Virus record (IMG/VR): IMGVR_UViG_3300043409_001471 | Coordinates: 1-32,875 of that record | Strand: one strand, 5' to 3' | DNA from: a virus | Length of the DNA: 32,875 nt | In this document: piece after piece, positions 1-32,875 of the stretch | Layout of the letters: every line of letters starts with the position of its first letter | Numbering within the stretch: position 1 is the first letter of the stretch | Notes under the pieces: generated by a model | Database searches by the model: none | What the model was told of the DNA's origin: nothing | What the model saw: only the letters and a program-made list of their open reading frames with translations | Program-made: the position numbers and the translations under genes

Positions 1-127
1 TATTGTTGTTCCACTTGTCTGCCAAGTTAAATAACCACCATTAGCATTAGTAGAATTTATATTACCAACATTACCATTTGATGTAGACAAAAATAATTCT
101 GTTGCCGTCACACTACTACTAAACGTA
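1..127. repeat. Terminal direct repeat marking circular closure (copy 1)
   Basis: These 127 bases are identical to bases 32749-32875. The fibre reading frame enters this copy from the left-edge gene and leaves through the right-edge copy without a frame break (2037 nt on one side and 339 nt on the other, both multiples of three). The simplest reading is a circular assembly with an overlap equal to a common assembler k-mer length (127), not a biological terminal repeat. The genome may be physically linear and circularly permuted in the virion; the sequence cannot tell. Confidence 0.93.
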
Positions 128-24522: not shown

Positions 24523-24984
24523 TTATAAAGATAGCACTAAATCATAAAGCGCAAAGAACTCGTCAGGTGTTTTTATAAATTCGTACACGCCGCCAGCTTT
24601 ACGCTCTCGCGCTTGCTCAAGTAATTGATCTTCGCGAGGTTTGTCTTTACCTACTTTTATTTCTATCATTACAGAGCGCCCTTTGATTGTAGCGGAAATA
24701 TCTGCCGTGCCTTTACGTGTTGAAGATTTGATCCACTTCTTAACACCTAGCGTAATGCCTGATGCTTGTTTTTCTTTGCCTTCAACTAAACGACCTGAGA
24801 CGTTTATACGCGTAGCTCGATGATCTTTCCAAGAAAGGTAATTACAAATAAAAGTAGTTAAGCCGTTTGATTCGTTTACTTTAGGAAGTTTAGGCTCTAA
24901 GTAGAAACCATCTTTGTAAGCGTGAGGATATTTTATTTTAAACCATTCTTCGTGAGCTATTTGATAGCGATCTTTAAACGTCAT
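24523..24984 (-). CDS. VRR-NUC-like nuclease (153 aa)
   Basis: The C-terminal half shows the PD-(D/E)XK pattern of VRR-NUC phage nucleases: GTAD (Asp95), then MIEIKVGKD with Glu108 and Lys110, then Q120 and a closing GGVYEF strand. The N-terminal 80 residues are an unusual extension with a basic stretch (ATRINVSGRLVEGKEKQ). Such nucleases act in replication or recombination, for example on branched or flap DNA. The gene overlaps the cytosine methyltransferase by 11 bases and is followed by the primase-helicase. Because it shares an operon with a DNA-modification pair, a restriction-like role on unmodified DNA is possible, but VRR-NUC genes are common without one. Confidence 0.75.
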   Translation of the reverse strand: MTFKDRYQIAHEEWFKIKYPHAYKDGFYLEPKLPKVNESNGLTTFICNYLSWKDHRATRINVSGRLVEGKEKQASGITLGVKKWIKSSTRKGTADISATIKGRSVMIEIKVGKDKPREDQLLEQARERKAGGVYEFIKTPDEFFALYDLVLSL

Positions 24985-26083
24985 TATTGATTTTTTTTAA
25001 TATAGTATTATAGACGTGTTCTGCTATTCCTTTCATCATCAATGGCGGTACTGCTCTACCGAGTCGCTCTGTTTTATGTGTATACTTTTCACCTAAGTAA
25101 TAATCGTCAGGAAATGATGATATTCTAATTAATTCTTTAATTGTTAATTCTCTATCTTCTTTCCAATGTAATAAACACGCACCTTTATTTCCTTGCCTTG
25201 CGCATACTGTGGGTGAAACTTTATTGCTATATATTCTTACTAAACCATGATATCCACTCGGTGCGTATTTATCACCAGATTCACCTTCTTTTAATAGTTT
25301 TACATATTCTTTTACTTTGCCTTCGCTATGTGTAGCTTCTTTTATTTCATTAACATTATGTACTAAATCATTTACTGCATCTTCAACACTTACATAATTG
25401 TAATCGCTTTTATTTATTGGATATGTTATAGGTATATCAAAATCATTTCGAACACCAATAAAGATAGTTCGCTCTCGAGATTGAGGTACGCCGAAATCCT
25501 TAGCATTTAGAACTTTGAATCTTACTTTATATCCTGCGTCTGATAATGCTTTGAATATAGTATCTGGTTCATCATCAAACATATTTATTTGTGAAGATCC
25601 TAATAAATTATTTGCTGCGCCCATTGTAATACCTTTTACATTTTCGCAAATAAATACTTTAGGTTGTACGTCTTTCAAAATACGCGCGAACTCAAAAAAT
25701 AGATCGTCAGTGCGTTGCGAAGAGTCTGAGTATTTTTTTTCTATGCCCCATCCTTTTTCACGCACACCGGCCATTGAAAAACTTGAGCAAGGAGGCGAGC
25801 CATCTAAAATATCAAGCTCTCCTTTATTTAACCCTATTTGTTTTAAAATCATATCGCCATTAATCTTTCTTATATCTTCTTTAAAGATATATGTTGATGG
25901 GTAATTCTTAGAGTATGCAAGTTGCGCGGCAGGTATAAATTCATTGATTGCTAATATGTTTCCACCTGCTAATCGATAGCCTGTTGAACTACCACCACCA
26001 CCTGCGAACATTGAAACGACATTAAATAATTTTAAAGATTCTCTTTGTTTTACATAATCGAGATCGTATATAAATCTTTTCAT
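24974..26083 (-). CDS. DNA cytosine-C5 methyltransferase with Arg in motif X: candidate cytosine carboxymethyltransferase (369 aa)
   Basis: All core motifs are present: I MFAGGGGSS (25-33), IV GSPPCSSFS with nucleophile Cys99, VI ENV (147-149), VIII QSRER (201-205), then a target-recognition region (about 215-300) with SPTVCARQG. In motif X, where C5 enzymes have a near-invariant Asn (GNAVPP), this protein has Arg343: RLGRAVPP. The codon is AGA at 25055-25057. From memory, changing this Asn to Lys in M.MpeI (N374K) allows use of carboxy-SAM and yields 5-carboxymethylcytosine. The gene directly upstream, 4 bp away, resembles the carboxy-SAM synthase CmoA. I infer a DNA carboxymethyltransferase; a plain 5mC enzyme remains possible. 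No cognate restriction gene was recognised. Base composition is lower in GC than the primase gene. Confidence 0.92.
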   Translation of the reverse strand: MKRFIYDLDYVKQRESLKLFNVVSMFAGGGGSSTGYRLAGGNILAINEFIPAAQLAYSKNYPSTYIFKEDIRKINGDMILKQIGLNKGELDILDGSPPCSSFSMAGVREKGWGIEKKYSDSSQRTDDLFFEFARILKDVQPKVFICENVKGITMGAANNLLGSSQINMFDDEPDTIFKALSDAGYKVRFKVLNAKDFGVPQSRERTIFIGVRNDFDIPITYPINKSDYNYVSVEDAVNDLVHNVNEIKEATHSEGKVKEYVKLLKEGESGDKYAPSGYHGLVRIYSNKVSPTVCARQGNKGACLLHWKEDRELTIKELIRISSFPDDYYLGEKYTHKTERLGRAVPPLMMKGIAEHVYNTILKKINNDV

Positions 26084-26087
26084 AAAT

Positions 26088-26723
26088 TTATTTTATTGCA
26101 ATTATTGCTTTGAAATTAAACATTTGCCAAAAAGTTGTAAATGTTGAAAAGCCTGACTTCTCTATTATATTGTTAAGATCGTATTCGTTATAAGGCTTCA
26201 TAATATATCTAAGATCCTTTTCTTTGCTTAATATTTCATTTGAGCTAAAACTATTAAGCTTATAATCATAATGAGAAAAGCTAAGTATATCTTGAAACTT
26301 ACCTTCATTTTGATATATCTTTTCGCAAATTATTAAAGCGCCGCCTTCGTTTAAACCATCATAAATATTTCTAATATAATTAAATCTTTTATCTGGGTTC
26401 AAAAACTGCATTGTAAATATCGAATATACTAAGCAAGAATTATTCAAATCAAAATATTCGTTTAGATTTACGTTTTCGAAATGCTCAGTATTTGTAGATA
26501 ATGGCAATAAATTTGAATAATCATAACCTATTTTCTTGCATTCTGTTTTTATCGATTTTAGTAGTTTACCAGTAGAACATCCAAGATCATAAACATTCGC
26601 ATCTTTTATAAAAAAGTATTCACTTATGCTTTGTATAGCACTTATAAGTAAATCATAATTAGGTATACTTTTTTCAATATGTTCATCGAAATTTTCAATA
26701 GTGTTAAAGTCAAAATTTTTCAT
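26088..26723 (-). CDS. CmoA-like SAM-dependent enzyme: candidate carboxy-SAM synthase (211 aa)
   Basis: A class I Rossmann methyltransferase-fold protein with motif I YDLGCSTG (45-52). Similarity to E. coli CmoA, as I remember its sequence, runs along the whole chain: FDEHIEKSIPNYD near the start, FTMQFLNPDKR, IYDGLNEGGAL, H-Y-D-Y-K for H-H-D-F-K, SGF...FWQMFNF and the end AIIAIK. CmoA makes carboxy-SAM from SAM and prephenate, normally for tRNA cmo5U34. The phage protein is shorter (211 against 247), mainly between motif I and FTMQF. CmoA Arg199, which I recall binding the carboxylate, aligns in a Lys-Glu-Lys stretch (167-169). No CmoB gene is present; the neighbour is a DNA methyltransferase. 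The gene is strongly AT-rich. An ordinary methyltransferase is the alternative. Confidence 0.78.
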   Translation of the reverse strand: MKNFDFNTIENFDEHIEKSIPNYDLLISAIQSISEYFFIKDANVYDLGCSTGKLLKSIKTECKKIGYDYSNLLPLSTNTEHFENVNLNEYFDLNNSCLVYSIFTMQFLNPDKRFNYIRNIYDGLNEGGALIICEKIYQNEGKFQDILSFSHYDYKLNSFSSNEILSKEKDLRYIMKPYNEYDLNNIIEKSGFSTFTTFWQMFNFKAIIAIK

Positions 26724-28947: not shown

Positions 28948-29099
28948 CACCTTACGAAAAATGGCAACAAAATAAATATGGCAATTTTATCAAAGAAACA
29001 TCAAATAATGAATGCATGGATTATACCTGGCTTGAAAGAAAAGCCGATCTACAACCGGAGAATACAAACGAAGATCCAAGTGATCGAAATTGTTCTTAA
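28884..29099 (+). CDS. Possible hypothetical protein overlapping its neighbours (71 aa, start uncertain)
   Basis: The middle (VPITPYEKWQQNKYGNFIKE) reads like real protein and recalls small phage proteins with a T-P-(Y/F)-E-K-W start region. The first 20 residues overlap the membrane micro-protein in another frame. The last 40 overlap the upstream part of the DnaA-like frame. Either this gene starts later by a non-ATG codon, or one of the overlapping frames is not translated. Both alternatives remain open. Confidence 0.4.
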   Translation: MDANHFTTLHRRSTSGSVVPITPYEKWQQNKYGNFIKETSNNECMDYTWLERKADLQPENTNEDPSDRNCS

Positions 29100-29349
29100 T
29101 TATTTTAATATAACAATGGAAGATCTAACAAAGAAATCACGCTCAAGAGAGCTTGTAATTAAAAGATACGTGATGGCTTATTGCTTGAAAAAGCACGCAG
29201 ACCAAAACTTATGTGAGATAGCTCGCATTCTTCGACCTGGCATCTCTAATCATACCACGGTAATGTATGGCTTAGCTCTCATTGAAGGACAGTTAACAAG
29301 TCCTTTTCAAAACTCTTATCGCGAACACATTGAAAATATCAATCTATGA
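28978..29349 (+). CDS. DnaA domain IV-like DNA-binding protein (up to 123 aa, start uncertain)
   Basis: Residues about 35-105 match the DNA-binding domain IV of the replication initiator DnaA: VLNYFNITMEDLT, then KSRSRELVIKRYVMAYCLKK, CEIARIL and the signature NHTTVMYGL (HTTV at 92-95), where DnaA contacts its box. The AAA+ ATPase domain is absent, so it cannot act as a full DnaA. It may bind the phage origin (the GTTACA field is a candidate) or compete with host DnaA. The true start may be 29008 or 29116, because the first 40 residues overlap the 71-residue frame. Its stop overlaps the next ATG (ATGA). Confidence 0.75.
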   Translation: MAILSKKHQIMNAWIIPGLKEKPIYNRRIQTKIQVIEIVLNYFNITMEDLTKKSRSRELVIKRYVMAYCLKKHADQNLCEIARILRPGISNHTTVMYGLALIEGQLTSPFQNSYREHIENINL

Positions 29350-32409: not shown

Positions 32410-32875
32410 TTAACACCATCCTGGTATTCTTACTGGTATATGATAAAACACACCATTAATTTCAACTTCTATAAATTTATCTGTTAACGTATTTGCAAAT
32501 TCAGCGAATGTTGTAGGTACTCCACAACTATCGGTTATTACACTTCCTAATTTCCAAGGCTGAGCAGTACCGCCTGTTGGTGCTGCCGTTTTTATTGTAC
32601 TACTAAACGTGGCTGCACCTGTGGAGGCTATAGTTAATCTTGAAGTATTATTAGTACCAAAAACTAATGACCTTACACCTCTTGCATTTATACCAAATGT
32701 ATCATTACCGCCAGCTCCAAATATTTGTTGAGCAGTACCTATGTCAGCTATTGTTGTTCCACTTGTCTGCCAAGTTAAATAACCACCATTAGCATTAGTA
32801 GAATTTATATTACCAACATTACCATTTGATGTAGACAAAAATAATTCTGTTGCCGTCACACTACTACTAAACGTA
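32410..32875 (-). CDS. Tail fibre / appendage protein, C-terminal part (continues from base 1)
   Basis: This is the end of the 791-residue fibre whose N-terminal part lies at 1-2037. Bases 32749-32875 repeat 1-127, so only 32410-32748 (112 residues plus stop) is new. It contains one more GAATFSS-type repeat, then PTGGTAQPWKLGSVITD and a C-terminal domain ending EINGVFYHIPVRIPGWC. A GTG near 32859 could look like a start, but the frame is open far upstream across the junction, so it is internal. The unusual terminal Cys may be exposed at the fibre tip. Confidence 0.85.
   Translation of the reverse strand, partial: TFSSSVTATELFLSTSNGNVGNINSTNANGGYLTWQTSGTTIADIGTAQQIFGAGGNDTFGINARGVRSLVFGTNNTSRLTIASTGAATFSSTIKTAAPTGGTAQPWKLGSVITDSCGVPTTFAEFANTLTDKFIEVEINGVFYHIPVRIPGWC
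32749..32875. repeat. Terminal direct repeat marking circular closure (copy 2)
   Basis: Identical to bases 1-127. Removing one copy gives a 32748-bp circle with an uninterrupted 791-codon fibre frame across the join. Confidence 0.93.

Follow-up and report, generated by a model that had tools for sequence, protein, structure and literature searches.

DNA cytosine carboxymethylation was recently described in the Synechococcus phage S-B43 (Yang et al., Nat Commun, December 2025; PMC12783734). This phage encodes SpCmoA, a carboxy-SAM (Cx-SAM) synthase, and SpCmoX, a natural DNA cytosine carboxymethyltransferase that accepts Cx-SAM as its only donor and modifies GC sites. Arg350 of SpCmoX, which replaces Asn304 of M.HhaI, touches the carboxymethyl group of Cx-SAM, and the R350N variant is inactive (PMC12783734). 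The ligase CmoY adds glycine to 5-carboxymethylcytosine (5cxmC), and the virion DNA contained the glycine amide, while free 5cxmC was not seen. The system was demonstrated by crystal structure, mutagenesis and LC-MS, and the authors listed 5,615 candidate CmoX proteins with SPPC and this Arg, together with 2,251 ligases (PMC12783734). Two other comparators are relevant here. M.MpeI N374K is an engineered C5 carboxymethyltransferase (PMC12783734), and the CmoA protein of E. coli (4GEK) belongs to the tRNA cmo5U pathway, with Arg199 as the sole contact to the Cx-SAM carboxyl group (PMC4482062).

Here we analyzed a viral record of 32,875 nucleotides (IMG/VR IMGVR_UViG_3300043409_001471), referred to below as the window. 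It carries a gene pair that is a pared-down further case of the published CmoA-CmoX system, in ligase-free form, and thereby broadens the reach of this very recent discovery to a small closed phage genome that devotes only two genes to the DNA modification. A first-pass annotation of this DNA had proposed that a CmoA-like protein and a C5 enzyme with Arg in motif X together lead to 5cxmC. This chemistry matches that of S-B43, and every sequence feature of the window that we tested agrees with it, but the pair is not the first natural example; the annotation's remark that no natural phage example had been described is out of date, as the S-B43 system has been published (PMC12783734). The added interest lies mostly in the relatives of the window, which carry prephenate-supply genes, a CmoX lineage with GFPC of apparently separate origin and a relocated CmoA Arg.

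The gene pair and its proposed function

On the minus strand, cmoA is followed after a 4-bp gap by cmoX, which in turn overlaps by its 3' bases with a nuclease-like ORF downstream (24523-24984; Table 1). Both ORFs are complete and lie where the first-pass annotation had placed them, and the codon that it had assigned to Arg343 in motif X reads AGA, in the context ERLGRAVPP. The annotation had also seen no CmoB, and indeed no TIGR00452 match was found anywhere in the whole record. All eight nearest viral relatives keep the cmoA-cmoX pair with the same motif X Arg, and the pair is also conserved with Arg across a survey of about 410 loci. The E-values, the conserved residues and the conservation in relatives rule out chance similarity.

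Table 1 Features of the window discussed in the text
Feature	Coordinates	Strand	Basis
cmoA, carboxy-SAM synthase, phage-type CmoA, 211 aa	26088..26723	-	TIGR00740; PDB CmoA sequence and fold matches; 37% identity to assayed SpCmoA
cmoX, DNA cytosine C5-carboxymethyltransferase, 369 aa	24974..26083	-	PF00145; PDB 8YF3 by sequence and fold
CmoA Arg172 codon, candidate carboxylate-binding Arg	26208..26210	-	Alignments with E. coli CmoA and SpCmoA; helix in model; putative role
CmoA Glu168 codon, in the place of E. coli Arg199	26220..26222	-	Alignment
CmoX SPPC motif, residues 96-99, catalytic Cys99	25787..25798	-	Aligned to SpCmoX S95-C98
CmoX motif X Arg343 codon (AGA), equivalent to SpCmoX Arg350	25055..25057	-	Alignment; PMC12783734
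Left copy of exact 127-bp terminal repeat	1..127	.	Closed genome
Right copy of exact 127-bp terminal repeat	32749..32875	.	

The window shares with S-B43 the joint presence of cmoA and cmoX, the SPPC motif, the motif X Arg, the Cx-SAM contacts and the Glu/Arg arrangement of CmoA. The gene order in S-B43 is cmoA, cmoY, cmoX, whereas the window has no CmoY between or near the two genes; the identities to the S-B43 proteins are 42% (CmoX) and 37% (CmoA), the window genome is small and closed, and its host is likely a member of the Bacteroidota. M.MpeI N374K resembles the window CmoX in having a basic residue instead of the motif X Asn, a change that permits M.MpeI to use Cx-SAM. That enzyme, however, has an engineered Lys, acts on CG sites and has no CmoA partner gene, whereas the window CmoX is natural, carries Arg and comes with its own CmoA.

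By analogy with S-B43, we consider it highly likely that the pair forms a minimal CmoA-CmoX DNA carboxymethylation module. Our model suggests that CmoA converts host SAM and prephenate to Cx-SAM, and that CmoX flips a cytosine out, attacks C6 through Cys99 and moves the carboxymethyl group onto C5 while Arg343 binds the donor carboxylate. The product would be 5cxmC at short sites in the phage DNA, where it would most likely protect the phage from host restriction. What we observe in the window and its relatives is the gene order, the homology, the conserved active-site residues, the fold and the tendency of Arg and CmoA to occur together. For SpCmoX, both the chemistry and the function of the Arg have been established, and we extend them by analogy to this 42%-identical homologue; activity in this phage, a target site, a 5cxmC end product and a benefit to the phage would follow. 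The lack of CmoB and of CmoY or PF00733 fits a module of this kind, as does the chorismate mutase beside cmoA in relatives, which fits the use of prephenate. Counted against it are a CmoA score under the TIGR00740 cut-off, the loss of Arg199 and eight viral Arg loci with no CmoA in view. Taken together, the CmoA-CmoX module is real and very probably functional.

Genome closure, host and end product

The record begins and ends with the same 127 bases, which leaves 32,748 unique bases. Such a terminal repeat is a usual sign of a closed assembly. We found no SpCmoY homologue, PF00733 match, ParB or chorismate mutase in this closed genome. Because the genome lacks a CmoY-type ligase, 5cxmC itself is the predicted end product; bare 5cxmC is thus the simplest reading for the window, and 5cxmC would then be present in the virion DNA of this phage. 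Alternatively, 5cxmC could be only an intermediate that is amidated or otherwise capped, as by CmoY in S-B43, through a host enzyme or a phage gene that escaped recognition. The glycine amide of S-B43 virion DNA, in which no free 5cxmC was present, is a precedent for this (PMC12783734). Several ORFs of the window match no family, and ligases are present in other CmoX phages. Among the other CmoA- or CmoX-bearing records of at least 30 kb, 6 of 23 have a PF00733 ligase, so that a CmoY-type ligase is frequent but not universal among CmoX phages. With neither an SpCmoY homologue nor PF00733 in the closed genome, and with PF00733 also missing from the remaining 17 of the 23 records, which are possibly fragments, we regard capping as a tentative and rather unlikely explanation. 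If bare 5cxmC is the end product, as we prefer, the two-gene genome offers a clean way to ask whether DNA is protected by 5cxmC on its own.

A SAM decarboxylase-like gene (PF02675) lies near cmoA and cmoX in eight phage loci (L144, L151, L152, L153, L161-L163 and L167). Its product could provide the amine for a capping reaction on 5cxmC, or the gene may have nothing to do with the modification.

The window TerL is 51% identical to that of Flavobacterium psychrophilum phages, a similarity that suggests a Bacteroidota host; judged by this sequence, the window is probably a Bacteroidota phage. A canonical CmoA over the TIGR00740 cut-off was present in only 6 of 198 Bacteroidota genomes. Since canonical CmoA is rare in this phylum, such a phage would usually need its own Cx-SAM synthase. 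Genomes of Hymenobacter, Telluribacter, Spirosoma and Larkinella also contain CmoA and CmoX pairs; every one has a single CmoA-like match, and none of these matches exceeds the cut-off. Elsewhere in the window, a plus-strand ORF at 28978-29349 encodes a protein of 123 aa whose sole domain is the DNA-binding C-terminal domain of DnaA (PF08299); it may bind the phage origin.

CmoX and the link between motif X Arg and CmoA

The window CmoX has a C5-methyltransferase fold with a catalytic SPPC. Its best PDB sequence match is 8YF3 (SpCmoX; E 7.7e-75), with M.HaeIII far behind (1.8e-23), and its AlphaFold2 model (mean pLDDT 87.7) has 8YF3 as top fold match at 1.6e-33, the next entry scoring 4.1e-22. 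Residues F25, E47, F48, D69, C98 and R350 of SpCmoX align with F26, E48, F49, D70, C99 and R343, and all the Cx-SAM contacts named for SpCmoX are retained in the alignment. Conservation is low between motifs VIII and IX. As the two enzymes are only 42% identical, the GC site of SpCmoX may not carry over to the window enzyme.

The other matches of this protein, to PF00145 (E 6e-56) and to a Type II methyltransferase in PADLOC, are generic, and would suit an ordinary SAM-using 5mC methyltransferase with an unrelated CmoA-like neighbour. To weigh this, loci were collected from five viral-contig scans, one bacterial and archaeal genome scan and named phages, with some contigs counted twice. The Arg enzymes that a methyltransferase query retrieved shared their locus with a CmoA 74 times out of 82 in viral sequences and 28 times out of 30 in genomes (102/112); no CmoA was in view in eight viral loci, and both genome loci without it end within 100 bp of the contig end. 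In contrast, CmoA was found beside none of the Asn enzymes (0/61 viral and 0/24 genome loci) and none of the Met-family enzymes (0/79), that is, in 0/164 loci for Asn and Met together. A motif X Arg that is common without a cmoA neighbour, which would speak against the pairing put forward in the first-pass annotation, was thus not seen. On the strength of this survey we rejected the ordinary 5mC methyltransferase, which is very improbable: the Arg tracks CmoA, SpCmoX with the same Arg takes Cx-SAM only (PMC12783734), and the best match of the window enzyme, by sequence and by fold, is a CmoX and not a 5mC enzyme.

The link also holds in the opposite direction. Starting from CmoA, the adjacent C5 enzyme has Arg wherever motif X is readable, including in several loci with GRTV and GRTI forms, with one exception, a Staphylococcus SPbeta-like phage (L175:5926-7655) in which cmoA is directly followed by an HhaI-like enzyme with Gly (VGGVI). 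A few CmoA loci, such as L147, L150 and L118, have no C5 enzyme in the stretch searched.

We then placed the C5 enzymes on a tree of 132 rows. A GFPC-type Arg enzyme with CmoA (L114) is nested in an ordinary Asn/GFPC clade with 97% SH-aLRT, and five independent tree pairs agree with the link between Arg and CmoA and none speaks against it (p = 0.06, the limit for five pairs). Therefore, Arg and CmoA seem to have come together on two or more occasions, and the GFPC-type lineage apparently gained both independently. Its 18 loci would fail the published SPPC filter and so be missed by it, and we did not find an independent GFPC lineage in the main text of PMC12783734. Members of this lineage with the motif X Arg have the reversed order, cmoX then cmoA (L114, L117, L119, L121, L125, L131-L135, L137-L139, L142 and others).

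On the same tree the Met family forms one clade, a large SPPC sister group with GMSVPP (L171, L172, L178 and L267-L346) from Flavobacterium, Cellulophaga and Parabacteroides phages and many contigs, with no CmoA. These enzymes share SPPC and a CmoX-like central region with the window enzyme, and by TerL the window is closest to those Flavobacterium phages that carry them (51%). They differ in having IGMSVPP where the window has LGRAVPP, in forming a separate clade and in never being accompanied by CmoA (82 loci). Another CmoX-like SPPC enzyme, from the Methylophilales phage Melnitz-3 (L173), carries Leu at the motif X position (GLMVAP); a RimK-like ATP-grasp gene lies nearby, and there is no CmoA in the stretch searched.

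CmoA and its apparently relocated Arg

The window CmoA matches TIGR00740 end to end (E 4e-34), and its score of 118 bits is below the curated cut-off of 193 bits for this equivalog of canonical tRNA-pathway CmoA. Its PDB sequence matches are the CmoA structures 1im8, 4gek and 4iwn, and the first six fold matches of its model (pLDDT 93.4) are all chains of solved CmoA (4iwn, 1im8 and 4gek). It thus resembles E. coli CmoA in fold and overall sequence, but lacks Arg199, scores under the TIGR00740 cut-off and belongs to a genome without CmoB. A role in tRNA wobble modification together with a host CmoB, the gene merely lying beside that of the methyltransferase, is scarcely credible despite the homology to tRNA-pathway CmoA and the label of its PHROG (tRNA methyltransferase), and was rejected as the phage has no CmoB, canonical CmoA is rare in the likely host phylum (6/198) and the association of CmoA with Arg-type C5 enzymes persists in unrelated phages.

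In the alignment, E. coli Arg199 is replaced in the window CmoA by Glu168, with Arg172 four residues on. The assayed SpCmoA, 37% identical to the window protein, has the same Glu/Arg arrangement. Because an assayed enzyme also carries this Glu, the loss of Arg199 is no argument against Cx-SAM synthesis, and we dropped the idea of a dead CmoA. Among 130 distinct CmoA rows, only 3 keep Arg199, with Glu203, while 107 have Arg at 203 and 20 have it at neither position; in these 20, the Arg is mostly eight residues on (ELSLSGVQRP). Positions 168 and 172 of the window CmoA lie on one helix of the model (161-174), with Arg172 one helical turn on; therefore, the Arg seems to have moved along the helix. 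We infer that Arg172 may replace Arg199 as the contact to the Cx-SAM carboxylate. The relocated Arg, which sits four or eight residues on in most phage CmoA proteins, was not found in the main text of the discovery paper (PMC12783734).

Probable prephenate supply in relatives

Chorismate mutase produces prephenate, the co-substrate of CmoA, and the pathway is entered through DAHP synthase. In two relatives a chorismate mutase gene (PF01817, cut-off 27 bits) lies between cmoA and cmoX (L007:8637-8900, 70 bits; L006:5814-6089, 45 bits), and in two others a fusion of DAHP synthase and chorismate mutase (PF00793 + PF01817) directly follows cmoA (L104:3821-4819; L110:3272-4228). When 57 phage records were searched whole, PF01817 was confined to these four, where it invariably abuts cmoA, and a local profile detected no chorismate mutase in the fetched stretches of 160 control loci. 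Compared by eye with the positions that we take to form the active site of E. coli chorismate mutase, including Glu52, most positions are kept and the one matching Glu52 differs; these sequences suggest that the enzymes could be active.

We hypothesize that a chorismate mutase or fusion beside cmoA is likely to supply prephenate for CmoA. These genes provide genetic support for the use of prephenate by these CmoA proteins, and bear on a question left open by the discovery paper, which named prephenate availability in different hosts as needing investigation and in whose main text the words chorismate and mutase do not occur (PMC12783734). For the clade of the window as a whole, which probably consists of Bacteroidota phages, we find the chances evenly balanced that it has a stand-alone 5cxmC pathway, in which the closed genome, with only CmoA and CmoX, would yield bare, negatively charged 5cxmC, and the chorismate mutases or fusions of its relatives would divert the host aromatic pathway to prephenate. 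The main text of PMC12783734 describes no wild phage with bare 5cxmC and no phage genes for the supply of prephenate.

A PF01817 protein is also encoded just upstream of cmoX in two Verrucomicrobiota contigs (L376 and L377). One Verrucomicrobiota genome carries many cmoX-cmoA cassettes on different contigs (L376, L377, L381, L383, L387 and L392), and another also has many (L378, L379, L388, L390, L393, L409 and L410); these cassettes are perhaps prophages or another mobile element.
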